A DNA stretch of 58,036 nt from Pseudomonadota bacterium (GTDB taxonomy: Bacteria > Pseudomonadota > Gammaproteobacteria > Burkholderiales > Burkholderiaceae_C): NCBI GenBank assembly GCA_021816585.1, contig JAKAXL010000016.1, forward strand, positions 1 to 58,036, written 5' to 3'. Each line of letters opens with the position of its first letter. Position 1 is the stretch's first letter. The notes beneath the pieces were generated by a model. It worked only from the letters and a program-made list of their open reading frames with translations. It was not told the DNA's origin and did not search any database. The position numbers were made by a program, and so were the translations under genes. Positions 29,621 through 55,371 of the stretch are shown in pieces.

Positions 29621-30443
29621 CGCCGTTCCCCGCCTGCCGTGCCGGCGCGGCGTCTTCCAGGCGAGCCTGCGCGAGGCCTTCATCGAGGAAGGCGGCGGAG
29701 CCGACGTGGATGCCGTGCAGCGCCAGGCGCATGGCGCGCGGCGTCGCGCCCAGGCGCTGCCACTGCCGTGCCAGCGATGCGGTGTTCGGGCTTTGCATCG
29801 GCCCGAAGCAGCCGTAGCAGCCGCGACGCTGGCCCGGGCACAGCGCGCCGCAGCCGGCGTGGGTCACCGGGCCCAGGCAGGGCCGGCCCTGCACCATCAC
29901 GCAGTTGTGCCCCTCGCGCTTGCACTCGATGCACACGCTGTGCGAGGCGATCGCCGGGCGGCGCCCGGCGAGAAAGGCCGTGATCACCTCGAGCAGCTGC
30001 GATTTGTCGACCGGGCACCCGCGCAGTTCGAAGTCCACCGCGACATGCGCCGAGATCGGCGTCGAGGTGGCGAGGGTCGAGACATAGGCCGGAGTCGCGT
30101 AGACCGCTGCCACCCAGTCGTCGATGTCTGCCAGGTTGCGCAGCGCCTGGATCCCGCCCGCGCTGGCGCAGGCGCCGATGGTCACGAGGTGGCGCGACTG
30201 CTCGCGTACGCGGCGGATTCGCTGCAGGTCGTGTTCGGTGGTGATCGACCCTTCGACCAGCGACAGCTCGTAGGGGCCGTCGATCACCGCGCTGGAGGCC
30301 TCCGCGAACTGCGCGATGCGCAGCGCCCCGGCCAGCGCCAGCAGGTCCTGCTCGCAGTCCAGCAGCGACAGCTGGCAACCGTCGCAGGAGGCGAACTTCC
30401 ACACCGCCAGGCGGGGCCGGGAGTCGGGATCGCGCGTGGGCAT
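29613..30443 (-). CDS. hydD: Group-3b-type [NiFe] hydrogenase small subunit (delta)
   Basis: 276 aa without signal peptide, as expected for a cytosolic enzyme. Iron-sulfur motifs: [13 protein letters not shown] (proximal cluster), [18 protein letters not shown], then [14 protein letters not shown] and [19 protein letters not shown], which hold additional 4Fe-4S clusters. It passes electrons from the NiFe site to HydG/HydB. It begins 3 bp after hydG ends. Confidence 0.88.
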
Positions 30444-30446
30444 GGC

Positions 30447-31286
30447 TCAGACCTCGCGGCAGGCGAGCAGTGCGGCGATGCGGTCCAGGCGCATCACCGG
30501 ACCGTCGCGGCAGACGAAGGTGGGCCCGAACTGGCAATGCCCGCAGCGCCCGATCCCGCACTGCATGTTGCGCTCCATCGACAGGTGGATGCGCGACGCG
30601 TCGACGCCGGCGGCGCGCAGCGCGCCGGCCGTGAAGCGCATCATGGTCTCGGGGCCGCAGACCATCGCCGCGGCATTCGCCGGGTCGAACTCGGCGCGTG
30701 CCAGCAGTGCGGGAACCACGCCGACCTCGCCGTGCCAGGAGGCGTCCGCGTGGTCCACCGTCACGTGCACCTGCAGGTCGGCGCGCGCCGCCCAGTCCCG
30801 CAGCTGTTCGCGGTACAGGATCTGCGCCGGCTCGCGCGCGCCGAACAGCAGCGCCACGCGGCCGTAGTCGGCGCGTGCGCCCAGCACCGCGTCGAGCACC
30901 GGGCGCAGCGGCGCGAGACCCAGTCCGCCGGCGATGATCAACAGGTCGCGCCCGCGCGAGTCCTGCAGCGGCCAGCCGCGGCCGAAGGGGCCGCGCAGGC
31001 CGAGCAGACTTCCCGGCTGCAGCGCGGCGAGCGCGCGGCTGATCGCGCCGACCTCGCGGATGGTGTGCAGGTAGCCCCCGGGGGCGTCGCGGCTGATGGA
31101 GATCGCGGCTTCGCCGACCCCGAAGGCATACAGCATGTTGAACTGCCCCGGGCTGCCGCGCGGCGGCGCGCCGCCGTCGGCGGGGACGAGGTCCAGACTC
31201 ACGGTGTCGGGCAGTTCGCGCCACGCCCGGCGCACGCGGTACGGCCGCGGGCGCATCGCGTCCGGGGAGGGGTCAGCGCCGGCCAT
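30447..31286 (-). CDS. hydG: Group-3b-type hydrogenase FAD/NAD(P)-binding subunit (gamma)
   Basis: 279 aa ferredoxin-reductase-fold protein, similar in layout to anaerobic sulfite reductase AsrB. FAD-binding SPGQFNMLYAFGVGEAAIS, NAD(P)-binding IIAGGLGLAPLRPVL, and a C-terminal 2Fe-2S site CGIGRCGHCQFGPTFVC. It exchanges electrons with NAD(P)H. Its start overlaps the end of the upstream cyclic-nucleotide-binding-fold gene by 14 nt. Confidence 0.9.
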   Translation of the reverse strand: MAGADPSPDAMRPRPYRVRRAWRELPDTVSLDLVPADGGAPPRGSPGQFNMLYAFGVGEAAISISRDAPGGYLHTIREVGAISRALAALQPGSLLGLRGPFGRGWPLQDSRGRDLLIIAGGLGLAPLRPVLDAVLGARADYGRVALLFGAREPAQILYREQLRDWAARADLQVHVTVDHADASWHGEVGVVPALLARAEFDPANAAAMVCGPETMMRFTAGALRAAGVDASRIHLSMERNMQCGIGRCGHCQFGPTFVCRDGPVMRLDRIAALLACREV

Positions 31287-31731
31287 AGACGTCGAGCAGC
31301 TGCAGGCGTGTCGCCTGCAGGCGGGCGACGACCACCGGAACGAAGCGCTTCATCATGTCGTAGCCGAATCCCGCGTCGGCCTCGGCCTTCGCGCGCAGGC
31401 ACTCGGCATCGATCCCGATGGCGCGCACGGTCTGCAGCGCGCGCGCATCGAACTGCCAGCGATACGGCGGCACCAGCCAGGACGCGCCGACCAGTTCGCC
31501 GTCGCCCAGCGTGGCGATCAGGATCGGCGCGCGCGCCGGAGCGTGGATCTCCAGCGCGACACGGCCGTGGCGCAGCAGCAGGAATTCGCGCGCCGGCTCG
31601 CCTTCGCGGAACAGGTAGCTGCCGGCCTCGAAGCGCTGGTTGCGCGCGCAGCCGGCGAGCAGCTCGAGGTAGCGCGGCGCGAGCCCGGCGAACAGCGGGT
31701 GCGCCGCGATGATGGGCTCAAGCCCCTGCAT
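31273..31731 (-). CDS. Stand-alone cyclic-nucleotide-binding-fold protein in the hydrogenase operon
   Basis: 152 aa, a single CRP-type beta-barrel domain ([20 protein letters not shown], then [12 protein letters not shown] and [14 protein letters not shown]) plus one C-terminal helix; no DNA-binding domain. The phosphate-binding cassette is degenerate ([19 protein letters not shown] lacks the usual Glu...Arg pairing), so cAMP binding is doubtful. It overlaps hydB and hydG by 14 nt each, so it is translated in step with the enzyme. Such proteins are known next to group 3b hydrogenases but without a clear function; it may be a regulatory or structural subunit. Confidence 0.85.
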
Positions 31732-32878
31732 GGCCGTTCTCCGCCGCGCCGCGCATCGCGGCGACTTCCTCGGTGATGTCGATGCCGGCCGGGCACCAGG
31801 TGATGCAGCGCCCGCAGCCCACGCAGCCCGAGCTGCCGAATTCGTCGAACCAGTGCGCGAGCTTGTGGCTCATCCAGTGGCGGTAGCGCGACGAGGTGCC
31901 GGCGCGCACGCTGCCGCCGTGGAGCTCGCTGAACTCGAGCGTGAAACAGGAGTCCCATGCGCGCTCGCGCCAGGCCGTCGATCCCTGCAGGTCGCCGTGG
32001 TCCTGCACCGTGGTGCAGAAGCAGGTCGGGCACACCATCGTGCAGTTGCCGCAGGCCAGGCAGCGTTCGGCCACCTGCTGCCAGCGCGGGTGCTCGGGGT
32101 TGTCCTGCAGCAGCTGCTTGAGCCCGTCGCCGGGCAGGCTGCGATGCATCGCGCCGGCCGCGCGGCGCACGCGTTCGCGCGCCGCCTGCAGCCGGGCTTC
32201 GTCGGCCGCCTCGTGCGGCACGCGCTCCAGCATGCGCGCACCGGCTTCGCTGCCCACCTCGACGACGAAGCCATGGCCGTGGGCGTCGAGCAACTCGGTC
32301 AGCGCGAGGTCGAAGCCGCCGCCGGCGCGCGGGCCGTCGGCGTGCATCGACGTGCAGAAGCAGGTGTCCGCCGGGTCGGTGCAGTGCACCGCGACGATGA
32401 AGCAGCCGGCGCGGCGCGCGGCGTAGCGGGAATCGGGGCAGGGCCCGTCGAGCAGCGTGCGGTCCAGCAGCTGCAATGCGCGCAGCTCGCAGGGGCGCAC
32501 GCCGATGAAGGCGGTCGGCTGCGGGGCCTCGTCGTCGTCGAGCAGGCTCAGGCTGCCGTCTTCGGCCAGGCGCATGTGCCACAGCGTGTGCCGCGGCGGA
32601 TGCACGAAGCGCTTCCACGACTGCACGGCGGCGGCGTAGCCGAACAGTGCGGCGTCGTCGCGGCGTTGCAGCCGGTAGCGGCCGGGCTGCTGCAGCGCGG
32701 TCCAGCCGGCCGGCAGGTCGTCGATGCCGCGGATGTCGTCGTAGACGATGGCGTCGTCGAGCAGCGTCGGCCCGAGCACGCGGCGGCCGTCGGCCGCCAG
32801 CGCCTCGATCAGGCGCTGCAGGCCTTGCCGGCGCAGCAGCGCCGCGGGATGCTCGGCAGGGGCAAAGGGCTGGTTCAT
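31718..32878 (-). CDS. hydB: Group-3b-type hydrogenase iron-sulfur subunit (beta), AsrA-like
   Basis: 386 aa. The N-terminal two-thirds resembles the AsrA/HydB domain ([36 protein letters not shown]). The C-terminal part has two 4Fe-4S motifs, [16 protein letters not shown] and [16 protein letters not shown]. It relays electrons between the hydrogenase module and HydG. It is the first gene of hydB-cnb-hydG-hydD-hydA-protease, with an FNR-type site about 65 bp upstream. Confidence 0.9.
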
Positions 32879-33047: not shown

Positions 33048-34034
33048 ATGAATCGATGGGCAGCTTGGTCGGCGCTGGTGCTGGGCGCCGCGGCCTTGGC
33101 ATCCGGCGCCTGCGGCGCCACGCTGCCCGGGCCGATGGTGGATGCGCAGTGGCTGCACGCGCATCTCGCGCAGGTGACGGTGCTGACGGTCGCCGACGGC
33201 GACCAGACGGCGCTGTACACGAAGGCGCCGCGCCTCGGGCCCGGGCGTTCGGTGCAGCAGGTCGGCGGACATATCCCCGGCTCATTGCTGGTGGACTTCG
33301 AGTCCATCCGGCAAAGCCGGGTCGAGGACGGCCACACGCTGCAGGCGCTGATGCCGGACGCCGGCTTCTTCACCGACGCGATGGACAAGGCCGGGATGCC
33401 GGCCTCGGGCAAGCCGGTGGTCGTCGTCATGCTCGGCGACGGCGTGGCGGCCGCCGACATGGCGGCGAGGCTGTACTTCCAGCTGCGTTACTTCGGCGTG
33501 CCGCGCGGCGAGGTCGCGCTGCTCAACGGCGGCACCGCGGCCTGGCTGCATGCCGGCTACGCGGTCAGCACCAGCCCGGCGCCGACGGCGCGCGGCGACT
33601 GGAAGGCCGGCGCACCGGACGCGTCGCTGCTGGCCACGCTGGACCAGGTGCGCCGCGCGCTGACCCTGCATTCGGCGCAGTTCATCGACGCCCGCCCGAC
33701 CCCGCAGTACCTGGGGCTGCAGCAGGCGCCGATCGACACCGCGGCCGGGCACCTGCCGGGCGCGAAATCCTTTCCCACCGACGCCATCGTCGCCGAGCGC
33801 GACGGCGTGACCCTGTTCCTCGACCCGCGCGACTACCGCTGGATGTTCGCCAGCTACTCGATCAGCGCCACGGCGCCGACCATCACCTACTGCAACACCG
33901 GTCAGTTCGCCGCCGGCGCGTGGTTCGTCGCGCGCGAGATCCTGGGCAATCGGCAGGCCAGCATGTACGCCAATTCGATGAACGAATGGACCCACCTCGG
34001 CAATCCGACGGTGGGCCTGCCGTCGCGGCCCTGA
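33048..34034 (+). CDS. Exported rhodanese (thiosulfate sulfurtransferase-like)
   Basis: 328 aa. A Sec signal (MNRWAAWSALVLGAAALASG, cleavage near CGA-T) precedes two rhodanese repeats; the first is the inactive one and the second carries the active Cys282 in TYCNTGQFAAGAW. Family members transfer sulfane sulfur from thiosulfate or polysulfide to an acceptor; here in the periplasm. The ATG at 33048 has a strong GGAGG. It lies between the group-3b hydrogenase and the psrABC-like genes, both FNR-site-linked, and could deliver or make polysulfide for the reductase. Confidence 0.85.
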   Translation: MNRWAAWSALVLGAAALASGACGATLPGPMVDAQWLHAHLAQVTVLTVADGDQTALYTKAPRLGPGRSVQQVGGHIPGSLLVDFESIRQSRVEDGHTLQALMPDAGFFTDAMDKAGMPASGKPVVVVMLGDGVAAADMAARLYFQLRYFGVPRGEVALLNGGTAAWLHAGYAVSTSPAPTARGDWKAGAPDASLLATLDQVRRALTLHSAQFIDARPTPQYLGLQQAPIDTAAGHLPGAKSFPTDAIVAERDGVTLFLDPRDYRWMFASYSISATAPTITYCNTGQFAAGAWFVAREILGNRQASMYANSMNEWTHLGNPTVGLPSRP

Positions 34035-34163: not shown

Positions 34164-36365
34164 ATGCAGCGGCGGGACTTTCTCAGGATCGGTGCGACGG
34201 TGGGTTCCGGCGCGCTGCTTGGCGGCGGTGTCGCCGGTTGCACGGCTCCCGCCTATTGGCAGAAGCTGATGGCCGAGGGGCCGTCCAAGCGCAGTCCGAC
34301 GGTGTGCAACATGTGCTTCTGGAGCTGTGCCGGCGAGGTGCACACGCGCGACGGCAAGCTGTGGAAGATCACCGGGCATCCCGGCGACCCGCATAGCGAG
34401 GGCCGGCTGTGCACGCGCGGCACCGGCGGCGTCGGCGCCTATTACGACCCCAACCGGCTGGTCAAGCCGCTGATGCGCGTCGAGCGCGGCGGGCGCCAGA
34501 GCTTCGAGGTCGTCAGCTGGGATGCGGCGCTGGGCTTCATCGCCGACAAGCTGCACAAGCTGCGCGACAGCCACGGCGCGGACCGGCTGGCGGCGATGGT
34601 GCACGGACCCGGTGCCGGGCACTTCGAGCACCTGGTGCGCGCCTACGGCAGCGACAGCGTCGCCGAGCCGGCCTTCGCGCAATGCCGCGGGCCGCGCGAC
34701 ACGGGCTTCTTCCTCACCTTCGGCGAGGGCCTGGCGTCGCCCGAGCAGACCGACATGCCGAACGCGCGCTGCATCGTGCTGATCGGCTCGCATATCGGCG
34801 AGAACTTGCACAACACGCAGGTGCAGGACTTCACCGCCGCGCTGCGCAACGGCGCCACCGTGATCACCGTCGATCCGCGCTTCTCGGTGGCGGCGTCGAA
34901 ATCGCAGTACTGGCTGCCGATCCGGCCCGGCACCGACATCGCGCTGCTGCTGGCGTGGATCCACGTGATCATGGCCGAGCAGTTGTACGACGTGGAGATG
35001 ATCCGCTCCGAGACCACCGGACTGCAGCAGCTCAGCGACCACGTCGCCGCCTTCACGCCGCAATGGGCGGCCGCCGAGACCGGCCTGGAGCCGGAACTGA
35101 TCGAGCGCACGGCGCGGCTGATGGCGGCGAGCGCGCCGGCGACCATGCTGCACCCCGGGCGCCACAGCACCTGGTGGGGCGACGACACGCAACGCTCGCG
35201 CGCGATGGCGATCCTGGCGGCGTTGCTGGGCATCTGGGGACGCAAGGGCGGCTACTACCTGCCCGAGGCGGTGCGGCTTCCCGAATACCCGCTTCCCGAA
35301 TACCCGAAGCCGCGCTCGAGCTGGCGCGACGTCACCGACAAGCGCTTCCCGCTGGCCGCGCTGCCGGTGAGCAACGTGGTGCTGGAGAACTGCACCGGCA
35401 AGGATCCGCATTACCGCGCGCTGCTGATCTACGACACCAACCTGCCGATGTCGGTTCCCGGCGCGCGGCGCCTGCTGCAGCAGGCGAGCTCGCAGCTGGA
35501 GCTGATCGTCGCCATCGACGTGCAGCCCTCGGAGGTGACCGGTTTCGCCGACATCGTGCTGCCCGAGTGCTCGTACCTGGAGCGCCACGACCCTCTGCGC
35601 AACGAGCCCGAGCGCGAGCCCTGCCTGGCGCTGCGCGCACCGGCGCTGCCGGCGCTGGGCGAGTCCAAGCCGGGCTGGTGGATCGCGCGCGAACTGGGCA
35701 TGCGCCTGGGACTGCAGCGCCATTTCCCCTGGAAGCACTACAGCGAGGTCATCGACTGGCAACTGCGCCAGGTCGGCAGTTCGCTGGACGAGATGCAGCG
35801 TATCGGCATCAAGAAATTCCCGCGCACCACGCCGCTGTACCGCGGGCGCCGCGAGAGCCTGGCGTGGGGAACGCCGAGCGGCAGGATCGAGCTGCACTCG
35901 AGCATCCTGGCCGAGGCGGGCTACGACCCGCTGCCGCGCTACGTGGCGCCGCAGGCGCCGCCGCAGGGCTTCCTGCGCCTGAACTACGGGCGCGCGCCGC
36001 AGCACAGTTTCAGTCGCACACAGAACAATCCGGTGCTTTATCAGATGATGCCGGAGAACGTGGTGTGGATCCACCCCGACGCGGCGCGTCGCTTCGGCGT
36101 CGAGTCGGGGAACTACGTGGTGCTGGTCAACCAGGACGGGGTGCGCAGCAACCGCGTACGGGTGCGCGTGACCGAGCGCACGCGCCCCGATTCGGTGTGG
36201 CTGGTGCATGGCTTCGGCCACACCGCGCCGGGGCTGTTCCTGGCGCGCGGGCGCGGCGCCGACGACGCCGGGCTGATGACCCGCGTGCTGGTGGACCCGA
36301 TCAGCGGCGCCACCGGGATGCGCGGCAATTTCGTCACGCTGCAAGCCGAGGAGTCCAGGGCATGA
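34164..36365 (+). CDS. psrA: Molybdopterin oxidoreductase, polysulfide/thiosulfate reductase catalytic subunit-like
   Basis: 733 aa, close to PsrA/PhsA length. The Tat signal (RRDFLRIG, 3-10) runs into a possible lipobox VAGC (23-26), suggesting a Tat-exported lipoprotein. The 4Fe-4S motif is C48-x2-C51-x3-C55 with Cys83 in GRLCTRG. Cys174 in FAQCRGPRDTG is the expected molybdenum ligand for this branch. C-terminal MoCo-binding stretch GATGMRGNF. It would reduce polysulfide, thiosulfate or a related compound in the periplasm with quinol electrons from the NrfD-type subunit. Rhodaneses on both sides favour a sulfur substrate; arsenate or tetrathionate cannot be excluded by sequence alone. Confidence 0.85.
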   Translation: MQRRDFLRIGATVGSGALLGGGVAGCTAPAYWQKLMAEGPSKRSPTVCNMCFWSCAGEVHTRDGKLWKITGHPGDPHSEGRLCTRGTGGVGAYYDPNRLVKPLMRVERGGRQSFEVVSWDAALGFIADKLHKLRDSHGADRLAAMVHGPGAGHFEHLVRAYGSDSVAEPAFAQCRGPRDTGFFLTFGEGLASPEQTDMPNARCIVLIGSHIGENLHNTQVQDFTAALRNGATVITVDPRFSVAASKSQYWLPIRPGTDIALLLAWIHVIMAEQLYDVEMIRSETTGLQQLSDHVAAFTPQWAAAETGLEPELIERTARLMAASAPATMLHPGRHSTWWGDDTQRSRAMAILAALLGIWGRKGGYYLPEAVRLPEYPLPEYPKPRSSWRDVTDKRFPLAALPVSNVVLENCTGKDPHYRALLIYDTNLPMSVPGARRLLQQASSQLELIVAIDVQPSEVTGFADIVLPECSYLERHDPLRNEPEREPCLALRAPALPALGESKPGWWIARELGMRLGLQRHFPWKHYSEVIDWQLRQVGSSLDEMQRIGIKKFPRTTPLYRGRRESLAWGTPSGRIELHSSILAEAGYDPLPRYVAPQAPPQGFLRLNYGRAPQHSFSRTQNNPVLYQMMPENVVWIHPDAARRFGVESGNYVVLVNQDGVRSNRVRVRVTERTRPDSVWLVHGFGHTAPGLFLARGRGADDAGLMTRVLVDPISGATGMRGNFVTLQAEESRA

Positions 36366-36904
36366 CCCGCTTCGTGATGGTGATCGACACGCGCACCTGC
36401 ATCGGCTGCTCCGACTGCGTGGACGCCTGCCGCATGGAGAACTCGGTGCCCGAGGGCCTGTGCTACGACTGGGTGGTCGAGGTCACGCGCGGGCGCTACC
36501 CGGAGCTGCACACCGAGTTCCGCAGCGAGCGCTGCAACCACTGCAGCCACGCCACCTGCGTCGACGCCTGCCCGACCGGCGCCAGCCAGCAGTGGAACGG
36601 CAGCAACATCGTGGTCGTCGATCCGGCGCGCTGCACCGGCTGCAAGGCGTGCATCGCAGCCTGTCCCTACGACGCCCGCCTGGTGCTGCAGCCGCAGGGC
36701 TACATCGGCAAGTGCACCTTCTGCGTGCACCGGGTTCGCAACGGCGAGGACCCGGCCTGCGTGGCCACCTGCCCGGCGCACGCGATGCACTTCGGCGTCG
36801 CCGACGATCCGACCAGCGAGGTCAGCCGGCTGGTCGCCAGCCGCGACTGGTACGTGCTGCAGCCGGAAAGCGGCAACGAGCCGAACGTGTACTACCTGCG
36901 CTGA
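36362..36904 (+). CDS. psrB: Four-cluster 4Fe-4S electron-transfer subunit, PsrB/NrfC-like
   Basis: 180 aa with four ferredoxin-type Cys groups: TCIGCSDCVDACRMENS, CNHCSHATCVDACPTGAS, CTGCKACIAACPYDARL and CTFCVHRVRNGEDPACVATCP. It has no signal peptide, as usual for subunits that cross with a Tat-bearing partner. It carries electrons from the membrane subunit to PsrA. Start overlaps the psrA stop as ATGA. Confidence 0.92.
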   Translation: MTRFVMVIDTRTCIGCSDCVDACRMENSVPEGLCYDWVVEVTRGRYPELHTEFRSERCNHCSHATCVDACPTGASQQWNGSNIVVVDPARCTGCKACIAACPYDARLVLQPQGYIGKCTFCVHRVRNGEDPACVATCPAHAMHFGVADDPTSEVSRLVASRDWYVLQPESGNEPNVYYLR

Positions 36905-36920: not shown

Positions 36921-37952
36921 ATGCGCGAGCAAGTCCTGGCCAGCGTGCTGGCGAATCCGCGGGTCGAACCCGTGATGCAGATCTGGGGCTGGCAGATCGC
37001 CACCTATCTGTTCCTCGGCGGGGTCACCGCGGGCCTGATGGTGTTCTCGGCGTGGGCGGTGCTGGGGCGCCGCAACGCGCCGTTCGCGGCGTACCGCGCG
37101 CCGCTGGTCGGGCTGGTCGTGCTGGCGCTGGGAATGACCACGCTGTTCGCCGACCTGGATCGCAAGATCAACGTGTGGCGCTTCTACACCACGCTGCATG
37201 TCACGTCGGTGATGTCCTGGGGCTCGTGGATCCTGCTGCTGGTTTTCCCGGCGCTGATCCTGTTCATGCTCGGCGGGCTGCAGCAGGGCTTCGCGCCGCT
37301 GGCGCGACTGGCGCGCGCCTTGCCGCTGGTGGGGGGGCTGCTGGGCTGGCTGATCGCGCAGTGCGAGCGCTGGCGCGCCTGGCTGGCCGCGGCCAACCTG
37401 GTGCTGGGCATCGGGCTGGGCATCTACACCGGGGTGCTGCTGTCGGGCTTCAACGCGCGGCCGTTCTGGCATTCGGCGCTGCTGGGCCCGCTGTTCCTGG
37501 TTTCCGGGCTGTCGACCGGGGCGGCGATGATGATCCTGGGCGCGCGCGAAGCCGAGGAACGGCACCTGTTCGGGCGCATCGACCTGCTGCTGATCGTCGT
37601 CGAGCTGGCGCTGCTCGGCCTGCTGCTGGCCGACATGCTCAACGGCAACGCGCTGCAGCGCGACGCCGTGCGCCACCTGCTGGGCGGCGCCCAGACGGGG
37701 GTGTTCTGGATCGGCTTCATCGCCGCCGGGCTGGTGCTGCCGCTGCTGCTGGAAGCCGCCGGCTGGCGCCGGCCGCTGCTGGGCGCCGGCATGCTGGCCG
37801 CGGTGCTGGTGCTGGGAGGCGGCTACCTGCTGCGCGACATCGTCGTGCAGACCGGGCAGCAGACCAGCTGGACCCATTTCGACAACCAGTTCGACCCGTC
37901 GCTGCTGGCGCGCCTGCGCCATGACGGCTTCGACCCTGCGGGACGCTTCTGA
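36921..37952 (+). CDS. psrC: NrfD/PsrC-family quinol-interacting membrane subunit
   Basis: 343 aa, eight or more membrane helices; WGWQIATYLFLGGVTAGLMV near the start is typical of NrfD/PsrC. It anchors the complex and oxidises quinol. The ribosome-binding site AAGGA lies 7 nt before the ATG. It follows psrB by 16 bp, giving the canonical PsrABC order. Confidence 0.9.
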   Translation: MREQVLASVLANPRVEPVMQIWGWQIATYLFLGGVTAGLMVFSAWAVLGRRNAPFAAYRAPLVGLVVLALGMTTLFADLDRKINVWRFYTTLHVTSVMSWGSWILLLVFPALILFMLGGLQQGFAPLARLARALPLVGGLLGWLIAQCERWRAWLAAANLVLGIGLGIYTGVLLSGFNARPFWHSALLGPLFLVSGLSTGAAMMILGAREAEERHLFGRIDLLLIVVELALLGLLLADMLNGNALQRDAVRHLLGGAQTGVFWIGFIAAGLVLPLLLEAAGWRRPLLGAGMLAAVLVLGGGYLLRDIVVQTGQQTSWTHFDNQFDPSLLARLRHDGFDPAGRF

Positions 37953-37980
37953 AGCCCGCGCATCCGGAGGACTCATCCCC

Positions 37981-38640
37981 ATGTCTGCACGCAAAGCTTC
38001 CCCGCGCGGCCTCGGCGCCGCGCTGGCCGCGCTGCCGCTGCTCGTTCCCGCGGTGTCGGCGCTGGTCCCGGCCGACGTGGTGTGGGCCGCCACGCCGCGC
38101 CAGCCCGACCTGCAGGTGCTGGCGCAGGCGGTGGCGCGCGGCGAGGACCGCATCACGCCGGCGCATCTGCGCGGCCTGCTCACCGCCAGGCGCGGCGACT
38201 TCACGCTGGTCGACATCCGCAGCCCGGCGGATTTCGCGCAGGGGCACATCCAGGGTGCGATCAACGTGCCGATGGCGCGGCTGTTCGATCCCGCCGAATT
38301 GGTGCGCCTGCGCAAGTCCCCGCAGGTGATCGTGGTGTCGCGCCAGATCGACCAGCAGGCGCAGGCCGCCGCGCTGCTGCGCGTGGCCGGGGTGCCGGCG
38401 CTGGAGCTGGCCGGAGGGCTGGCGGCGTGGGCGCATGCCGTCGACGCTTGGTCGGCGTCGCGCGAGGACTACGCCATCGTGCGCGCCCTCAATGAATGCC
38501 CGCAGGCCGAGACCTCGCCGATGCCGTCGCTGCAGATCCCGCCCACCGGCACCGGCGCCACGGCGCCCGCGCCGGCGCCGGCCGCGCCGCCGGTGCGGCA
38601 CGGTACGCCGCGCGTCAACCTGAAGGGGATGTGCAGTTGA
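37981..38640 (+). CDS. Exported rhodanese-fold protein without the active-site cysteine
   Basis: 219 aa. A signal-like hydrophobic N-terminus (about 11-37) leads to one rhodanese domain (FTLVDIRSPADFAQGHIQGA; ELAGGLAAWAHAVDAW). Where the active Cys is expected after VIVV the residue is Ser120 (VVSRQID). Only Cys173 and Cys218 occur, outside the catalytic loop. A Pro/Ala linker (180-205) precedes a basic tail. It is the fourth gene of the psr-like operon and its stop overlaps the next gene as TTGA. It may bind sulfur species or serve as an assembly factor rather than an enzyme. Confidence 0.82.
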   Translation: MSARKASPRGLGAALAALPLLVPAVSALVPADVVWAATPRQPDLQVLAQAVARGEDRITPAHLRGLLTARRGDFTLVDIRSPADFAQGHIQGAINVPMARLFDPAELVRLRKSPQVIVVSRQIDQQAQAAALLRVAGVPALELAGGLAAWAHAVDAWSASREDYAIVRALNECPQAETSPMPSLQIPPTGTGATAPAPAPAAPPVRHGTPRVNLKGMCS

Positions 38641-40196
38641 GCGCGCGTCTGGAGCTGCCGCTGGCGGCCGGCGCCCGGCTCGCCGGCAGCGCCGCGGCCG
38701 CGCCCGGGCGCAACGCCGTCGCGACCCTGCTCGGCGAGGCGCGGCGCATGGTGCTGGCCAGCGCGGTGGCCGGCAATCCGTCGGCCTCGGCGCTGGCCTG
38801 CGTCGGTGACGGCGACGCCTTGCTGTTCGCGTGCCCGCGCATGTCGCGCGCGGCGGCGCAGCTCGAACTCAACGCCGCCGCGCAGGCGCTGGTGCTCGAC
38901 GAGCGCGGCCAGGCGGTGCTCGAGCTCAGCGGCTACTGCCGCGAGCTGCGCGATGCGCTGGCGCGTCGCGACGCCTTGGCCCGCTTCGCCGGGCGCCTGC
39001 CCGCGCAGGTGCTGGACGACCTGGCCGGCGAGGCGCCGGGGCAGTACGCGTTGCTGCGCCTGGTCCCCGTGCGCGCGAGCGTGCCGGGTCCGTCCGGTGC
39101 GTCGCCGCAGGCCTGGCTGGACTTCCCGCAGAACGCGCCGCGCAGCTCGGCGCTGGCGCTGGGAGCCTTCGGGCGCAACCTGCGGCTGTGGGTGCGCGCG
39201 GTGCGCGCGCCCTTCTTCACCGCCGCGGTGGTGCCGATGCTGCTCGGCGCAGCCGTCGCGCGCCGCGCCATGCCGGCGGCCGACTGGAGCTGGTCGATGT
39301 TCGCGTGGACCCTGGTCGGCGCCGTGCTGGCCGCCGCCGGCACCAACCTGATCAACGACTACGGCGACTCGCGCAGCGGCGCCGACGAGTGCAACCCCGT
39401 CGGCGGCAACCCCTTCACCGGCGGCAGCCGCATGATCCAGCTGGGGCTGCTGGCGCCCTGGCAGATGCTGCTGGCCAGCGTGCTGTGCTTCGTCGCGACC
39501 ATGGGCATCGGGCTGCACATCAACGCGCTGCTCTCCGGCTCAGCGCTGGCCCTCACGCCGCTGCTGGGAATCGGCGTGCTGGGCTGCGTGCTCGGCGTGG
39601 CCTACACGGTGGGTCCGTTCGCGCTGAGCTACCGGGGATTCGGCGAGGTCGCGGTGGCGCTGGGATTCGGTCCGGTGATCGTGATGGGCAGCAGCTATGC
39701 GCTGGCCGGCGCCGCCGGCGTGGCGTGGCCGTGGCAGGCCTCGCTGCTGGCCTCGGTGCCGGTGGCGCTGTTCATCCTGCTGGTGCTGTGGATCAACCAG
39801 TTCCAGGACGCCCCCGCGGACTCCGCCAGCGGTAAGCGCAACTGGGTCGTGCGGGTTTCCGAGCGCCCCGACGGCAGCTTCGACTTCGGCGCCGCCTTCG
39901 TCGCCTACACCGCGCTCAACCTGGCCGGCTTCGCCGCCATCGCGCTGCTCGGGGTGCTGGGGTGGCTGCGCCCGCAACTGGCGACGCCGTGGGCGTGGAT
40001 CGCGCTGCTGGCGCTGCCGTTGTTCCTGCGCGCGCGCGCGGCCGCGCAGGCCTGGAACGCGCGCTGGCGCGACCCCGCGGCCGATCGCGCGGGCCTGCCC
40101 TTCCAGCTGCTGCCGGTGAACGCGATGACCATCGGCGTGCACCTGGTCGGCGGCCTGCTGCTGGCCGCGGCCTACGTGCTGGGCGCGATGCGCTGA
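38637..40196 (+). CDS. Fusion of a pyridoxamine-oxidase-like flavin-binding domain and a UbiA/MenA-type prenyltransferase
   Basis: 519 aa from a TTG start (38637) that overlaps the previous stop as TTGA and has AAGGGGA about 8 nt upstream. Residues 30-165 look like the split-barrel PPOX/HugZ-type domain (ARRMVLASAVAGNPSASALA, CPRMSRAAAQLELNAAAQAL). From about 185 on it is a UbiA-fold membrane protein with NDYGDSRSGAD (240-250) and a second motif DAPADSASGKRNWVV; the MenA-like layout suggests prenylation of a naphthoquinone precursor. It is the last gene of the psrABC-like operon, so a quinone for that reductase is the natural hypothesis. Fusion and context are both unusual. Confidence 0.8.
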   Translation: MSARLELPLAAGARLAGSAAAAPGRNAVATLLGEARRMVLASAVAGNPSASALACVGDGDALLFACPRMSRAAAQLELNAAAQALVLDERGQAVLELSGYCRELRDALARRDALARFAGRLPAQVLDDLAGEAPGQYALLRLVPVRASVPGPSGASPQAWLDFPQNAPRSSALALGAFGRNLRLWVRAVRAPFFTAAVVPMLLGAAVARRAMPAADWSWSMFAWTLVGAVLAAAGTNLINDYGDSRSGADECNPVGGNPFTGGSRMIQLGLLAPWQMLLASVLCFVATMGIGLHINALLSGSALALTPLLGIGVLGCVLGVAYTVGPFALSYRGFGEVAVALGFGPVIVMGSSYALAGAAGVAWPWQASLLASVPVALFILLVLWINQFQDAPADSASGKRNWVVRVSERPDGSFDFGAAFVAYTALNLAGFAAIALLGVLGWLRPQLATPWAWIALLALPLFLRARAAAQAWNARWRDPAADRAGLPFQLLPVNAMTIGVHLVGGLLLAAAYVLGAMR

Positions 40197-40609
40197 GCCG
40201 CGCGCCGTTCGAAGGCCAGCATCGTGCGCTGCAGCAGCTGCGGCAGCGCATGGCGCGCCAGTTCGTCGAGCAGCGGCTCGCCCAGCTCCGCGTGCAGCGT
40301 GCCGCGCACCCGCGTCACCGACGCCGACAGCGGCTCGAAGTCCCAGCGCAGCTCGAACGCGCGAAACGGCGCGCCGGCGCGAATGCCGACGCGCTTCGGC
40401 GCCTCGAACTCGGCACGCGAACGGAAGTGCCAATCGCGCCCCAGCAGGTGCACGCGCTGTTCGACCTCGGCGCTGCCGGCGTCGCGGCGCAGCACCCGTG
40501 CCGAACTCCAGCCGGGCATGAACTGGGGGTAGGCGTCGACGTCGGCGACCAGTTCGTACAGCGCCTGCGCCGGCCACGGCAGCACGCGCTCGACTTCCAG
40601 CGCGACCAT
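40172..40609 (-). CDS. START/SRPBCC-fold protein, COQ10/RatA-like
   Basis: 145 aa. EVERVLPWPAQALYELVADV, YPQFMPGWSSARV and the C-terminal amphipathic helix (LPQLLQRTMLAFERRAAQRI) match the small polyketide-cyclase-like family that includes coenzyme-Q-binding COQ10 and RatA. These bind hydrophobic ligands such as ubiquinone. Its 3' end overlaps the UbiA-fusion gene by 25 nt on the opposite strand, and its start overlaps the upstream gene stop by 1 nt. Confidence 0.82.
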   Translation of the reverse strand: MVALEVERVLPWPAQALYELVADVDAYPQFMPGWSSARVLRRDAGSAEVEQRVHLLGRDWHFRSRAEFEAPKRVGIRAGAPFRAFELRWDFEPLSASVTRVRGTLHAELGEPLLDELARHALPQLLQRTMLAFERRAAQRIAPST

Positions 40610-41007
40610 CAGCCCGGTGCGAACAGCGGGGTGAGGTCCGCGTAGATGCGGTAGTCGTCGATTCCGGCCTCGCCGCCGCGCCAGATGGTCGCGGCCGGCA
40701 GGGTGAACTGCGAGCCGTCGTGGCGTGTGTAGGTCGCGCCGAGCCGGCACACCAGCGCGCCGTCGCAGTACCAGCATTCGTGCAGCTCGTGGCGCAGCGC
40801 GCGGATGGCGGAAAAGAAGCGGCCGACCTCGCGGGCCACTTCCTGCGGCCCCACGCAGGGCGCGGCGTTGCCGAACACGAAGCTGCCGCGTGGCGAGAAC
40901 CAGGCGCCGAAGGCCTGAGCGTCCATGCGGTCGACGCTTTCGAACACCGCGCGCGCATAGGCGCCCGCCTGGTCCTTGCTTGCCGGAAATCGTGGAGGGT
41001 GGCTCAT
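40609..41007 (-). CDS. NTF2/SnoaL-fold protein
   Basis: 132 aa. [24 protein letters not shown] and [17 protein letters not shown] fit a one-domain SnoaL-like alpha+beta barrel. These are ligand-binding pockets or isomerases; function is not predictable. It is transcribed divergently from the membrane-bound hydrogenase operon and its stop overlaps the START-domain gene (TGATG). The FNR-type palindrome at 41027-41052 lies just upstream, so it may share that regulation. Confidence 0.75.
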
Positions 41008-41052: not shown

Positions 41053-41171
41053 CCCGGAGCGGGCGTGGACTCCCATCGATGGTTCTGGGAGTATGTGCCG
41101 TGATCTTGCCGGATGCGGCGGGCGCGGCGGGGCGCGGAACCCGCGAATCGTCAAGGCGGGGAGGCGAAAAA

Positions 41172-42299
41172 ATGGTATCCGAAAGCCCGACTTTCTACGA
41201 GCTGATGCGAGCGCAGGGAACCAGCCGGCGCTCGTTCCTGAAGTTCTGCACCCTCACCGCCGCGGCGCTCGGGCTCGACCCGTCGTACGCGGCGCAGATC
41301 GCCGAGGCGATGCAGACCAAGCCGCGCATCCCGGTGCTGTGGATGCACGGACTGGAGTGCACCTGCTGCTCGGAGTCCTTCATCCGTTCCGGCCATCCGC
41401 TGGCCAAGGACGTGATCCTGAAAATGATCTCGCTGGACTACGACGACACGCTGATGGCGGCCGCCGGCGAGCAGGCGGAGGCGATCCTCGACGAGATCCC
41501 GAAGAAGTACAAGGGCCGCTACATCCTCGCGGTGGAGGGCAACCCGCCGCTCAACGAGGACGGCATGTACTGCATCGTCGGCGGCAAGCCCTTCGTCGAC
41601 AAGCTCAAGGCGGTGGCGGCCGACGCGATGGCGGTGATCGCGTGGGGCGCCTGCGCGTCGTGGGGCTGCGTGCAGGCGGCCAAGCCGAACCCGACCCGCG
41701 CCACGCCGATCGACAAGGTGATCACCGACAAGCCGATCATCAAGATCCCCGGCTGTCCGCCGATCGCCGAGGTGATGACCGGGGTGATCGCCTACGTCAG
41801 CACCTTCGGGCGGCTTCCCGACCTGGACAACCGCGGGCGCCCGCTGATGTTCTACGGCCAGCGCATCCACGACAAGTGCTATCGCCGCGCGCACTTCGAC
41901 GCCGGCGAGTTCGTCGAGTCGTGGGACGACGCCGGCGCGCGCGCCGGCTACTGCCTGTACAAGATGGGCTGCCGCGGACCCACCACCTACAACGCCTGCT
42001 CGACCCTGCGCTGGAACGGCGGGGTGTCGTTCCCGATCCAGGCCGGGCACGGCTGCATCGGCTGCTCGGAGGAGAACTTCTGGGACAACGGGCCCTTCTA
42101 CCAGCGCCTGTCGGGCGTGGGCCTCGGGCTGGCGGTCGATGCCACGGCCGATGTCGTGGGCGGCACCGCGGCGGGGGTGGTCGGCGCGGCGGTGGTCGCG
42201 CACGCGGGCGCCAGCGTGGTCAAGCACCTGCGCCGCGACAAGCCGGCGCAGCAGCAGCCGGAAATCTCCAACAGGGATCGAGGAGAGGGGCAATCATGA
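41172..42299 (+). CDS. hyaA: Membrane-bound [NiFe] hydrogenase small subunit, oxygen-tolerant type
   Basis: 375 aa. Tat signal SRRSFLKFC (18-26). The proximal-cluster cysteines read CTCC at 63-66, Cys161 and Cys166 in WGACASWGC and Cys195 in PGCPP. The two supernumerary Cys (65, 166) are those that mark oxygen-tolerant group-1d enzymes such as C. necator HoxK; standard enzymes have Gly at both. Further His/Cys ligands ([33 protein letters not shown]) hold the medial and distal clusters. A C-terminal hydrophobic helix (about 320-350) anchors it. RBS GGGGAGG lies 9 nt before the ATG. Confidence 0.95.
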
Positions 42300-44092
42300 G
42301 CACGACCACGCCGAACGGTTTCAAGCTGGACGACAGCGGGCAGCGCATGGTGGTCGATCCGGTGACCCGGATCGAGGGCCACCTGCGTTGCGAGGTGAAC
42401 CTGGACAAGGACAACGTGATCCGCAACGCGGTGTCGTCGGGCACCATGTGGCGCGGGCTCGAGGTCATCCTGAAGGGACGCGATCCGCGGGACGCCTGGG
42501 CCTTCTGCGAGCGCATCTGCGGCGTGTGCACGGGGGTGCACGCGCTGGCCTCGGTGCGCTCGGTGGAGGACGCGCTGGGAATCCGCATCCCGGAGAACGC
42601 CAACACCATCCGCAACCTGATGCTGGCCACGCAGTGGGCGCAGGACCACCTGATCCACTTCTACCACCTGCATGCGCTGGACTGGGTGGACGTGGTGTCG
42701 TCGCTGAAGGCCGACCCGAAGCAGACCAGCGTGCTGGCGCAGAGCATCTCGCCGTGGCCGAACTCCTCGCCCGGCTATTTCCGCGACGTGCAGACGCGTC
42801 TGCAGAAGTTCGTCGACTCGGGGCAGCTGGGGCCGTTCATGAACGGCTACTGGGGCAACCGCGCCTACCTGCTGCCGCCCGAGGCCAACCTGCTGGCGGT
42901 GTCGCACTACCTGGAGGCGCTGGACTTCCAGCGCGAGATCGTGAAGATCCACACCGTGTTCGGGGGCAAGAACCCGCACCCGAACTGGCTGGTCGGCGGC
43001 ATGGCCTGCGCCATCAACCTCGACGGCGAGATGGCCGCGGGGGCGCCGGTGAACATGGCCCAGCTCGAACTCGTGTCGGACATCATCGACCGCACCATCG
43101 CCTTCATCGACCAGGTGTACCTGCCGGACCTGCAGGCCATCGCATCGTTCTACAAGGGCTGGGACTTCGGCCGCGGGCTGGCGGGGACCAACATCATGTC
43201 CTACGGCGAATTCCCGCTGGCGGCCAACGACTGGTCGGACTCCAACCTGGCGATCCCGCGCGGCGCGATCGTCGAGGGGCGGCTCGACCGCGTGCTCGAG
43301 GTGGACCTGCGCGACCCCAGGCAGGTGCAGGAATTCGTCGATCACTCCTGGTACAAGTACCCGGACGAGGCCGCCGGGCTGCACCCGTGGGAAGGCATCA
43401 CCGACCCGGACTTCCGGCTCGGTCCGAAGACCGTGGGAACGCGCACGGACATCCGGCAGCTCGACGAGTCGGCCAAGTACTCCTTCATCAAGGCGCCGCG
43501 CTGGCGCGGGCATGCGATGGAGGTGGGACCGCTGTCGCGCTTCACCATCGGCTACGCGCGCGGCATCCCCGAATTCAAGGAGCCCGTCGATCGCCTGCTG
43601 ACCGACCTGCAACTGCCGGTGGCCGCGCTGTTCACCACGCTGGGCCGCACCGCCGCGCGCGGCCTGGAGGCCAGCTGGGCCGCGCACAAGATGCGCATGT
43701 ACCACGACCGCCTGATGGCCAGCCTGCGCGCCGGCGACCTCGCCACCGCGAACACCGACAAGTGGGAGCCCTCGACCTGGCCCGCCGACACCAAGGGCGT
43801 CGGCTGGGTGGAGGCGCCGCGCGGCTCGCTGGGGCACTGGTCGCACATCCGCAACCAGCGCATCGAGTCCTACCAGGCGGTGGTGCCCACGACCTGGAAC
43901 GGGTCGCCCCGCGACCCCGCCGGCAACATCGGCGCCTTCGAGGCCGCGCTGCTCGGCACGCCGCTGGCCGAGGCCCGGCAGCCGCTGGAGATCCTGCGCA
44001 CGCTGCACAGCTTCGACCCCTGCCTGGCGTGCTCGACCCACGTCATCGCGCCCGACGGGGGCGAACTGGTTCGCGCACAGGTCTGCTCCTGA
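42296..44092 (+). CDS. hyaB: Membrane-bound [NiFe] hydrogenase large subunit
   Basis: 598 aa. Nickel ligands in ERICGVC (Cys75, Cys78) and DPCLACSTH (Cys576, Cys579, His582), followed by a 16-residue tail for removal by the HyaD-type protease. It oxidises H2 in the periplasm and is carried across by the small-subunit Tat signal. The start overlaps the hyaA stop as ATGA. A strong hairpin follows the gene. Confidence 0.96.
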
Positions 44093-47345: not shown

Positions 47346-47645
47346 ATGTGCCTGGGAATCCCGATGCGGGTGGTGGAGGTCGACGGCCTGTGGGCGCGCT
47401 GCGAGGGCCGCGGCGTGCAGCGCCGCGTGAACCTGGGGCTGCTCGGCGAGGCGCCTTGCGGCAGCTGGCTGCTGGTGCTGGGCGACAGCGCGCGTGAGCG
47501 CCTGGAACCCGACGAAGCCTCGCGCATCGACCTGGCGCTCGACGCCGTGGAGGCGGCGCTGCGCGGCGAGACCGACCTGTCGCGCTACTTCCCCGATCTC
47601 GACGGACTCTCGGCGCGCGGCGCGCCGGCGGCCGGCACGGCGTAG
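47346..47645 (+). CDS. hoxL: HypC/HoxL-type hydrogenase chaperone
   Basis: 99 aa. Begins MCLGIPMRVVEVDG with the essential Cys2, and contains RRVNLGLLGEAPCGSWLLV. HypC/HoxL proteins carry the Fe(CN)2CO unit with HypD and deliver it to the large subunit. A second family member (hypC, 55.1 kb) is in the hyp operon, so this one, co-transcribed with hyaABC, is probably the dedicated HoxL/HupF. Its 3' end overlaps hypF on the other strand by 61 nt. Confidence 0.88.
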   Translation: MCLGIPMRVVEVDGLWARCEGRGVQRRVNLGLLGEAPCGSWLLVLGDSARERLEPDEASRIDLALDAVEAALRGETDLSRYFPDLDGLSARGAPAAGTA

Positions 47646-49969
47646 CGGGCCGCCGCCACCACGGCCTGGCCGAGCGCGACTCCGCCGTCGTTGCTCGGCA
47701 CCGCGCGGTGCGCCAGCACCTGCAGGCCCTCGGCGCGCAGGCGCCGCAGCATGGTCTCGAACAGCAGGCGGTTCTGGAACACGCCTCCGCTCAGCGCGAC
47801 GCGCGGGCATCGCAGGCGTCGCGCCTGCTCCAGCAGCAGCTCGCACCACGCCTGCGCCAGCCCCAGGTGGAAGCGCCGCGCGATGCGCGCGGCGTCGACT
47901 CCGCGTGCCCGATCGTGCAGCAGCGCCTGCCACATCGGCGCCGTGCGCAGCTCGTCGAGTTCGCCCGTGCGGGCGACGGCGAAGGGATAGGCCGCGGCAT
48001 CGTCGCTGCGCAGCGCGAGCTGCTCGAGCTCGGCGGCGGCCTGGCCCTCGTAGCTCTGCGCATCGAAGCACAGGTCGAGCGCCGCGGCGACGGCGTCGAA
48101 CAGACGCCCGCAGCTCGACGCCGGGGGCGAGTTCACGCCGCCTTCGATCATGCGCTGCACGACCCGCAGCGGCTTGTCGTGCAGGCGACGCAGTTCGCCG
48201 GCATGGCGCGCGCGCAGCGTGCCGTCGGGATCCGCCAGCAGCAGCTGCGCCGCCAGGTTGCGCCAGGGCTCGCGCGAGGCGGCGTCGCCGCCGGGCAGCG
48301 CCGCCGGCTGCAGGCGCGCCACGCGCGGTGCGTCGACGTAATCGGCGTGCAGCAGTTCGGCGCCCCAGGCGCTGGAGTCGTCGCCCCAGCCGAGTCCGTC
48401 GAGCACCAGCGCGAGCACGCGCCCGCCGTCCACGGCGTGGCCGCAGTCGGCCATGCAGGCGGCCGCGTGGGCGTGGTGGTGCTGCACCTCGACCAGCTCG
48501 ATGCCCAGGCGCGCCGCCCAGTCGCGGCCGTGACGGCTGCTCGCATAGTCCGGATGGCGGTCGACCACCAGCGCCTGCGGCGCGCCGCCGAACAGCTGCA
48601 GGTACAGCTCGAGGGTGCGCTGCCAGTCTGCGCGGGTGGCCGGATCGTCGAGGTCGCCGATGTGCTGCGACAGCACGGCGTGGTCGTCGCGCAGCAGGCA
48701 GAAGGTGTTCTTCAGGTCGGCGCCGAGCGCCAGCAGCCGGCGCGTCGCGTGCAGCGGAACGCGCAGCGGCTCGGGGGCGTAGCCGCGGGCCCGGCGCAGC
48801 GGGCGCGGCACGCCGTCGAAGCAGCGCAGCACCGAATCGTCGACACGGTTGACCACCTCGCGGTCGTGCCCGAGCAGCGCGTCGGCGATCCCCGCCAGGC
48901 GCGAGCGTGCCTCGTCGTCGCCGGTGCATTGCGGCTGTCCCGACGGATTGCCCGAGGTCAGCACCAGCGGGTGCCCGAAGCCGGCCAGCAGCAGGTGATG
49001 CAGCGGAGTCATCGGCAGCATGAATCCCAGCGCCGCGCTGCCCGGCGCCACCACCCGCGGCAGCTCGAGCTCGCCGGGATCCTCCAGCAGCACGATCGGC
49101 GCGGCCGAAGCGGCCAGCGCCTGCTCCTGCTCCGGAGTCGGCGTGCGCCAGCGCCGCACCACGTCGAGGTCGCGCGCGATCAGCGCCAGCGGTCGCGCCG
49201 GGCGCCGCTTGCGCCGGCGCAGCCGCGCCACCGCATCGGCGTTGGTGGCGTCGACCGCGAGCTGGTAGCCGCCCAGACCCTTGACGGCCACGATGCACCC
49301 TGCGCGCAACAGGCGCGCCGCCAGCGCGACGGGGTCGGCCGTGTGCTGGCGCCGGCCGTCGACTTCCAGCCACAGCGCCGGTCCGCAGCGCGGGCAGGCG
49401 TTGGGCTGCGCGTGGAAGCGGCGGTCGGCGGGGTCCTCGAATTCGCGCCGACAGTCCTCGCACATCGTGAACAGGCCCATGCTGGTGCCGGCACGGTCGT
49501 AGGGAATGCGGCGCTGGATCGACAGCCGCGGCCCGCAGTGGGTGCAGTTGGTGAAGGCGTAGCCGTGGCGACGGTCCCGCGGGTCGCCGATCTCGCGCAG
49601 GCAGTCCGGGCAGGTGGCGCTGTCGGCCTTGATGTAGGTGGCGGCGGCGCCGTCCACGCTGGGGGCGATGACGAACCCCGGGCCGGGATCCGGCTGTGCC
49701 GGCTCGCCGACCTCGACCTCGTCGACTCGCGCCAGCGGCGGCGCCCGGCTGCGCAGCGCCTCGATGAAGGCGAGCAGCTCCGGGGCGTCGCCCCAGGCGT
49801 GGATCCACACGCCGTCGGAGTCGTTGCGCACGCTGCCGTCGATGCCGTGCTCGTGTGCCAGGCGCCACACCGTCGGCCGGTAGCCGACGCCCTGCACGAC
49901 GCCGCGCACGCGGATGTCGCGACCCAGGCGCGCGGGCGCGGCGCAGGCAGGGTTCACGCGGCGCGCCAT
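47585..49969 (-). CDS. hypF: Carbamoyltransferase HypF
   Basis: 794 aa. Acylphosphatase domain ([17 protein letters not shown]), two zinc-finger pairs (CPDCLREIG...[13 protein letters not shown]...CPRC), YrdC-like domain ([17 protein letters not shown]) and Kae1-like carbamoyl-transfer domain ([39 protein letters not shown]). It makes the thiocarboxamide on HypE that becomes cyanide. ATG at 49969 overlaps hypB by 16 nt; a GTG at 49957 (GTGA overlap) is equally possible. The last part runs 61 nt into the convergent hoxL gene. Confidence 0.94.
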
Positions 49970-50802: not shown

Positions 50803-50804
50803 CT

Positions 50805-50880
50805 CAGGCCTCCCGTAGGGCCGCCCCAAGGGAGGCCTGCGCCCCCTCGGGGGGCAGCGAACGAAGTGAGCGTGGGGGTC
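50805..50880. repeat. Palindromic intergenic repeat between hypA and hypB
   Basis: Two nested hairpins: CAGGCCTCCC (50805-50814) pairing with 50830-50839, and CCCCCTCGGGGGG (from 50842), followed by AGCGAACGAAGTGAGCGTGGGGG. The core CCCCCTCGGGGGGCAG is repeated at 17669-17684, and a diverged version of the whole lies between cydD and cydC. It fills most of the 86-bp hypA-hypB gap. Confidence 0.7.
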
Positions 50881-50888
50881 GCTCCATC

Positions 50889-52329: not shown

Positions 52330-52385
52330 ACTTCAAGCAGCGCCGCGGCACGCGGCCGGCTGCCCTCGCTGCAAAGGAACCTGCG

Positions 52386-52829: not shown

Positions 52830-52861
52830 GGCGGCGCCGGCGCGGCGCCTTGCGCCGGGCT

Positions 52862-55050: not shown

Positions 55051-55078
55051 GGCTCGCTCCGGCTGGCGAAGGCTGCGC

Positions 55079-55348: not shown

Positions 55349-55371
55349 GGCAGGCTCCAGTGCGGTGCGTT

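Follow-up and report, generated by a model that had tools for sequence, protein, structure and literature searches.

A PPOX-UbiA fusion beside psrABC and the quinone it may help to make

What is a flavin-type domain, fused to a prenyltransferase of the quinone kind, doing at the end of a psrABC gene row? The arrangement lies in a 58,036-nucleotide contig of a Pseudomonadota bacterium (Burkholderiaceae_C; JAKAXL010000016.1 of assembly GCA_021816585.1), called the window below. Here the gene at 38637..40196 (+) encodes a 519-residue fusion of a PPOX (PNPOx_N) domain with a MenA-type UbiA domain, as identified from its TTG start, Pfam, NCBIfam and an AlphaFold model. An initial annotation, made from the letters alone, had suggested that the fused domain could let the cell make a modified or specialised quinone only when a polysulfide reductase is made, and our results partly support that interpretation. 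The fusion family has a wide, patchy distribution and is tied to genomes without detected MenD and mostly without MqnA/D, and its link to polysulfide respiration holds, as gene neighbourhoods indicate, for one subclade only. We propose, with slightly less than even confidence, that the product of the enzyme is a carrier of naphthoquinone type, its ring being obtained by salvage or by an unknown route, and that in the psr-linked clade this carrier plausibly serves respiration from H2 to polysulfide beside ubiquinone. Domains, clade, gene neighbourhood and the lack of MenD or MqnA/D over cut-off in the window genome were observed directly; gene content suggests the acceptor, product, PPOX reaction and electron path.

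The fusion family and its prenyltransferase half

Both halves recognised by the initial annotation were found. PNPOx_N covers residues 27-146 of the window protein (30.9 bits against a Pfam gathering score of 28.1), within a split-barrel domain of residues ~25-165 (38709..39131, +) whose model strands lie between 37 and 148. UbiA (PF01040) covers residues 197-477 (68.2 bits against a cut-off of 34.2), within a membrane domain of residues ~185-519 (39189..40193, +) that carries a PFTGGSR motif and was delimited by Pfam, NCBIfam, alignment and tree. Both Asp motifs, NDYGDSRSGAD and DAPADSASGK, are present, and D241, D244, D250, D391 and D395 are invariant in all 20 rows of the fusion alignment A1. 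In the AlphaFold model (mean predicted local distance difference test, pLDDT, 84.3), the fold nearest to the membrane half in the PDB is UBIAD1 (template modelling score 0.81 by target length), and the N-terminal half resembles split-barrel flavin or F420 proteins (3ec6, 2hti, 3db0). A search of the PDB with the 20-row A1 profile returned two chains at E<=0.01, the PNPOx-like 3db0 and the haem-binding HutZ (3tgv, E 0.0035). The TTG start shares its TTGA with the TGA stop of the upstream gene, an overlap that had been noted initially and that joins the fusion to a rhodanese gene; we infer the exact start, because the reading frame is open back to 38496.

A scan of genome contigs, with phyla assigned by record title, returned 48 loci, 42 of which cover nearly the whole fusion (L004-L043, L050, L051). 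These comprise five psr-type Proteobacteria, one Gammaproteobacterium (L040), one representative each of Chlorobiota, Bacteroidetes and Caldisericaceae, and 33 loci that we call Actinomarina-type (records titled Actinomarina, OCS155, Acidimicrobiia or Actinomycetota), from a marine actinobacterial group that is common in the ocean. The other six match the prenyltransferase half alone (L044-L049; Chloroflexota and Hebobacteria). The fusion is thus confirmed as a real domain architecture, a local chimera or assembly error being ruled out by the 42 near-full-length relatives and by a 93% identical copy in L004. Within the class of the window genome, 55 of 369 genomes match at 1e-20 and the full fusion occurs in four, window genome included; the genomes shown from the same family (two) and the same order (one) have no match. 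Within the class of an Actinomarina genome, 75 of 148 match at 1e-20, and 30 of the 75 match the fusion itself (one over partial length, two with an internal stop codon).

We then asked which kind of prenyltransferase the UbiA half represents. Ten NCBIfam models matched the window protein at E<=0.1; nine are named for prenylation of 1,4-dihydroxy-2-naphthoate (DHNA) or a naphthoquinone (best 114 bits) and the tenth simply for a "prenyltransferase", and none of the ten is UbiA (TIGR01474), TIGR01475, CtaB, MqnP or chlorophyll synthase. The first Asp motif agrees with DXXDXXXXXD, the MenA pattern in an excerpt of PMC9235831. A maximum-likelihood tree of 63 UbiA-family domains was built with 23 fusions (19 of the 42 scan loci, the window and three class mates), 11 canonical MenA rows (seven from the Actinomarina class, four annotated as plasmid-borne MenA) and four UbiA/CtaB rows as outgroup, which stand for the ubiquinone and haem O enzymes; chlorophyll synthase was not included. 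All 23 fusions form one clade (support 100/100), in which the six psr-linked members are a subclade (100/99). Grouping with the haem O or ubiquinone enzymes, an outcome that the initial annotation had named as contrary to its proposal, was not found. Two results count against a MenA assignment: no model is over its own cut-off (TIGR00751 scores 73.9 against 102.15 bits), and the 11 canonical MenA rows form a separate clade (100/98) that contains no fusion, the UbiA domain of the fusions lying outside it. When the tree is rooted on the UbiA/CtaB rows, canonical MenA falls among rows with a shared motif described below, at forks of moderate support, and the forks joining fusions to standalone neighbours have support of 81/71 and 81/85, with long branches in six rows. 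Models and tree together support a MenA-type enzyme rather than one of UbiA, MqnP or CtaB type. A haem O, 4-hydroxybenzoate or MqnP enzyme is ruled out as the identity of the fusion by the NCBIfam models, the tree and the separate UbiA and CtaB genes in the genome.

The shared motif, [PA][FY]xGGSRxxQ (GGSR type), is present in 23/23 fusions, three Chloroflexota rows and two of three Hebobacteria rows, in two genomes of the Actinomarina class (G395, G401) and in 15 of 16 standalone rows from class mates of the window genome (L084-L099). It is absent from the 11 canonical MenA rows, the four UbiA/CtaB rows and L106. Judged on these tree rows, GGSR type is a motif, not a clade. In G401 (L120, 5467-7379, -), a separate PNPOx_N gene (28.4 against 28.1 bits) overlaps the start of a GGSR-motif prenyltransferase gene, the first 120 residues of whose product look by eye like a diverged barrel and have no Pfam match. 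The Chlorobiota and Bacteroidetes genomes each encode a second long UbiA-family protein of ~550 residues with a different-looking N-terminal part (L104 448-2088, L105 1158-2807).

Quinone genes in genomes that carry the fusion

Is the usual machinery for a naphthoquinone present alongside this enzyme? Many fusion genomes are metagenome-assembled or single-cell genomes of uncertain completeness, so the absence of any single gene is weak evidence; the overall pattern is not. MenD was over cut-off in 0/34 fusion genomes (19 + 15), with a model that in a control exceeded its cut-off in 7 of 14 well-known genomes. MqnA/MqnD (PF02621, cut-off 26 bits) was found in three of 33 (G005, 65.8 bits; G007, 64.5 bits; G008, two strong matches). 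MenB was over cut-off in none of 18 genomes, 15 of them fusion genomes; the best score, 297.4 against 342.7 bits in G004, may reflect a BadI-like relative. The check for men and mqn genes that the initial annotation proposed gave the same picture in the window genome, which is 93.6% complete: MqnA/D is absent, and the best MenD score, 59.6 bits, lies below the cut-off of 244.2. Besides the fusion, the genome has two UbiA-family genes, for heme O synthase (CtaB) and 4-hydroxybenzoate UbiA (L002), both over cut-off.

For contrast, nine genomes were sampled from the 45 others of the Actinomarina class that match. MenA is of the ordinary kind in seven of them, each of which also has MenD; the remaining two, G395 and G401, have the GGSR motif and no MenD. 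Among class mates of the window genome with a standalone MenA-like match, 24 of 51 were sampled and one has MenD (G143, ~2 kb from the match). The GGSR motif was looked for in 16 of these 24 and is present in 15.

The Actinomarina-type genomes give the clearest view of the fusion as a quinone enzyme. Nine of them have two UbiA-family genes each, and in the two copies tested the second scores over cut-off as heme O synthase, so that the fusion is seen, by gene content, as the only candidate quinone prenyltransferase in the nine genomes scanned. That Actinomarina needs a quinone is suggested by the heme O synthase, a neighbouring DsbB and general knowledge. In 32 of 33 Actinomarina-type loci the fusion is followed within 400 nt by a UbiE homologue, one copy of which (L012) was named by hidden Markov model. 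Other annotated neighbours are DsbB, a redoxin, a rhodopsin (beyond UbiE), ATP-binding cassette transporters, SufB, a DNA methylase and a ROK kinase; four neighbours have no Pfam match. Nothing was learned from the surroundings of ten more loci, most of which are standalone MenA-like genes in class mates.

Because a MenA-type enzyme is present without Men or futalosine genes, the ring should come from elsewhere, by salvage or an unknown pathway. In the mechanism we propose, the enzyme would add a polyprenyl chain to a bicyclic acid of naphthoquinol type. The product would be a quinone resembling demethylmenaquinone, which UbiE could methylate; its ring would derive from neither the Men nor the futalosine route, and the simplest source of that ring would be salvage of DHNA or a related naphthoquinone. 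Salvage has a precedent in L. plantarum, which, according to a section of PMC10746273, uses exogenous DHNA without the full pathway. One genome weighs against this proposal. In the Caldisericaceae genome G008 (L011) the fusion lies 6 kb from mqnA, mqnC and mqnE, a cluster with its own UbiA-type gene, and the fusion is therefore an extra there. On the same grounds, a role as the futalosine prenyltransferase was rejected for G008. The UbiA-type gene of that cluster (C423:15297-16037; L103 7223-8092) is interrupted by a TAG stop.

The same absences would suit a de novo pathway, in which the ring is made by unknown enzymes, the quinone is possibly new, and the prenyltransferase and UbiE are the sole recognisable steps. 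We regard this as possible but doubtful. The MenD and MqnA/D counts and the nine genomes with just the fusion and one other UbiA-family gene speak for it, as does a 2026 survey (PMC13386864), which describes many bacterial lineages without a known quinone pathway, suggests that further quinones may await discovery and mentions Gloeobacter as a producer of menaquinone or phylloquinone that has no known pathway. Against it, no ring-forming gene was recognised among the neighbours of the fusion, in a search that covered neighbours and not whole genomes gene by gene. It is likewise rather unlikely, in our estimate, that the PPOX-fused prenyltransferases and UbiE are the visible end of a third, unrecognised quinone route that provides both the sole quinone of Candidatus Actinomarina and, for Proteobacteria with ubiquinone genes, a low-potential quinone dedicated to respiration from H2 to polysulfide. 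The fusion family points to a definite gene in genomes that lack MenD or MqnA/D, the marine actinobacterial group included, and gives a testable entry point to what is prenylated and which quinone these cells contain.

The psr row, its neighbours and the PPOX half

We next examined how far the link to polysulfide respiration extends. The psrABC linkage reported in the initial annotation is conserved in six genomes, together with a START/COQ10-like neighbour. The fusion is the last gene of a rhodanese-psrABC-rhodanese row on the + strand. A first rhodanese-domain protein (33048..34034; PF00581; start taken inside a longer open reading frame) is followed by a psrA/phsA-like molybdopterin catalytic subunit (34164..36365), residues 1-730 of which match Thermus thermophilus 2vpw_A at 655 bits (NF012032 PhsA 423.8 bits, under its cut-off of 694). 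Then come a psrB-like multi-4Fe-4S subunit (36362..36904; PF13247, 80.5 bits), a psrC-like NrfD membrane subunit (36921..37952; PF03916, 137.8 bits) and the second rhodanese-domain protein (37921..38640; PF00581), whose stop overlaps the fusion start. The subunit order, molybdopterin, 4Fe-4S and NrfD, is that expected of PsrABC, in which NrfD/PsrC is the quinone-reactive subunit. Convergent with the fusion is a gene for a START/Polyketide_cyc protein of COQ10/RatA type (40172..40777, -; PF03364, 66.4 bits; NF007999 RatA 47.6 bits, below cut-off), with 1t17, which we take to be the COQ10-type protein CC1736 of Caulobacter, as its best PDB match (E 4e-8). The small and large subunits of a [NiFe] hydrogenase follow at 41079..44092 (+), and then a b-type cytochrome to 44879 (TIGR00391, PRK10170, TIGR02125).

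By BLAST, psrABC, the two rhodaneses, the fusion and the convergent START gene are common to all six psr loci (window, L004, L005, L006, L007, L009), with the first rhodanese inverted in L005, L006, L007 and L009, and matches to psrA/B/C are confined to these six among all loci examined. Identity to the window is 66-71% for PsrA and 82-84% for the hydrogenase subunits (L005, L009), with L004 excepted. The hydrogenase genes come next in the window, L004 (to the contig end), L005 and L009, and L006 is too short to tell. START matches were found solely beside the fusion among 141 loci, in the six psr loci and in G235 (L083/L102); in L102 the START gene is directly upstream of the fusion on the same strand, with no psr gene.

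Two further gene groups flank this region. At 28337-32830 (-), four genes resemble sulfhydrogenase/NAD(P)-hydrogenase models (alpha, delta, gamma and beta-like), all below curated cut-offs, with a small open reading frame that by eye looks cyclic-nucleotide (cNMP)-binding; these genes are divergent from the psr row, so that two different [NiFe] hydrogenases flank it. Beyond the other hydrogenase, 47588-57494 holds hypF, hypD and CydD, all over cut-off, and an open reading frame that by eye looks like hypA.

In the psr clade, the [NiFe] hydrogenase next door would pass its electrons to PsrABC through a low-potential quinone, in a host whose other quinone genes are those for ubiquinone, and the START/COQ10-like protein would act as quinone handler. 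A low-potential quinone suits polysulfide as acceptor, and methyl-menaquinone reportedly has such a role in Wolinella. Several observations weigh against this account. In the DNA covered, some of it with short flanks, there is no psr gene in 37 of the 42 scan loci, nor in the three further class-mate loci L100-L102; the family is therefore not a polysulfide-only device, and the specificity for polysulfide reduction implied by the initial annotation did not hold. L007 has no hydrogenase genes beside its psr row. PsrABC could also run as a sulfide oxidiser with ubiquinone, and the fold of PsrC is by itself no guide to which quinone is used, because crystals of T. thermophilus PsrC contained menaquinone-7 or ubiquinone-1 (PMC8076601).

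If PsrABC does use ubiquinone, for instance in sulfide oxidation, the prenyltransferase might make a non-respiratory prenylated aromatic such as an antioxidant, lipid or signal. The many loci without psr genes fit this, as do the standalone MenA-like enzymes of class mates without MenD (23 of the 24 sampled) and their uninformative neighbourhoods. Such a product nevertheless seems improbable to us, given the psrABC linkage in six genomes of one subclade with its START/COQ10-like neighbour, the hydrogenase genes adjoining in four of the six psr loci, the UbiE gene adjoining in Actinomarina-type loci and the nine Actinomarina-type genomes in which the fusion is the only candidate quinone prenyltransferase. 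On the respiratory reading that we prefer, the psr-clade fusion may explain a low-potential sulfur chain in a bacterium with a ubiquinone pathway.

The PPOX half behaves differently inside and outside the psr clade. Outside it, in a comparison of four fusions (L008, L010, L011, L040) with ten Actinomarina-type rows, mean identity is 66.9% for the PPOX half against 52.0% for the UbiA half, and PNPOx_N scores 36.9-44.5 bits in members L011, L012, L100 and L101. This strong constraint is as expected of an active domain. Inside the clade the order is reversed (PPOX 45.0%, UbiA 64.6%), and the psr rows share 27.3% (PPOX) and 49.5% (UbiA) identity with the four other fusions. An adjacent Arg-Lys pair lies at the flavin phosphate of PNPOx/PPOX split barrels. 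Arg71 is kept in 20/20 alignment rows and the adjoining Lys72 in all 14 non-psr rows.

Ancestrally, the PPOX half would most likely have used flavin mononucleotide (FMN) to convert an oxidised ring to the quinol form needed by the prenyltransferase. CofD, of F420 synthesis, was over cut-off in 0/13 non-Actinomarina fusion genomes (G114 has two partial matches at contig ends), with none in the window genome G000, and this favours FMN there. F420 as cofactor throughout the family was rejected on that count. Evidence to the contrary comes from the Actinomarina-type genomes, 13 of 15 of which have CofD over cut-off and, by gene content, make F420, and from the L040 fusion, which weakly matches an F420-type PPOX model (28.5 against 79.05 bits). 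FMN is thus the more general cofactor candidate, and F420 may be used in Actinomarina.

In the window protein itself the flavin role is doubtful, because the PPOX half has diverged and Lys72 is lost in the psr clade (0/6 rows). Arg57 is also missing in the window and L004, PNPOx_N scores are close to the cut-off (L005, at 25.3 bits, is below it), and the ratio of nonsynonymous to synonymous substitution rates (dN/dS) is 0.36 for PPOX against 0.15 for UbiA in one pair, the window and L004, the PPOX half changing faster. The split-barrel domain of the initial annotation is confirmed as a fold; in the window protein and its psr kin, the flavin domain has diverged. The PPOX half of the window protein is possibly altered or in decay; where H2 and sulfur are used without oxygen, a reductase to hold the ring acceptor in its reduced state would conceivably be less necessary.

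These losses, the low psr-clade scores and the HutZ profile match would also fit a PPOX half that is not a flavin enzyme but regulates or places the prenyltransferase, either as a sensor that binds haem or a ligand or as a scaffold. We think this unlikely, though less so than a non-respiratory product, in view of the strong cross-phylum conservation and higher scores among non-psr members, the numerous fold matches to FMN or F420 split-barrel proteins and the separate PNPOx_N gene that overlaps a related prenyltransferase gene in G401.

Comparison with known systems

Among the matches listed for literature pairing UbiA with PNPOx-type terms, we found no description of a PPOX-UbiA architecture. 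Among known enzymes it resembles MenA, with which it shares the UbiA fold, the DXXDXXXXXD first motif and the best NCBIfam models. It differs from MenA in scoring below every listed MenA cut-off, in lying outside the canonical clade, in its N-terminal PPOX domain, in having PFxGGSR where canonical rows have another sequence, and in a genome without MenD over cut-off. UBIAD1, the human menaquinone-4 synthase, gives the membrane half its best match among solved folds (8djk_B), but the two share 18% identity and UBIAD1 has no fused PPOX domain. The N-terminal half has the same fold as the PNPOx-like proteins Lin2891 (3db0) and BH_0577 (2hti) and the F420-binding Rv1155 (4qvb) and Rv2074 (5jab); unlike them, it is a barrel joined to a membrane enzyme, and in the psr clade it is without Lys72. 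Another enzyme domain joined to a UbiA-family prenyltransferase is known from IspH-UbiA Rosetta-stone fusions, in which, as an extract of PMC4746011 has it, the partner is the isoprenoid enzyme IspH and not a flavin-type domain. Finally, the window resembles T. thermophilus PsrABC in its catalytic subunit (2vpw_A) and in the order of its 4Fe-4S and NrfD subunits, whereas its PsrC has no PDB match at E 0.01 and its row includes a prenyltransferase and a START gene.

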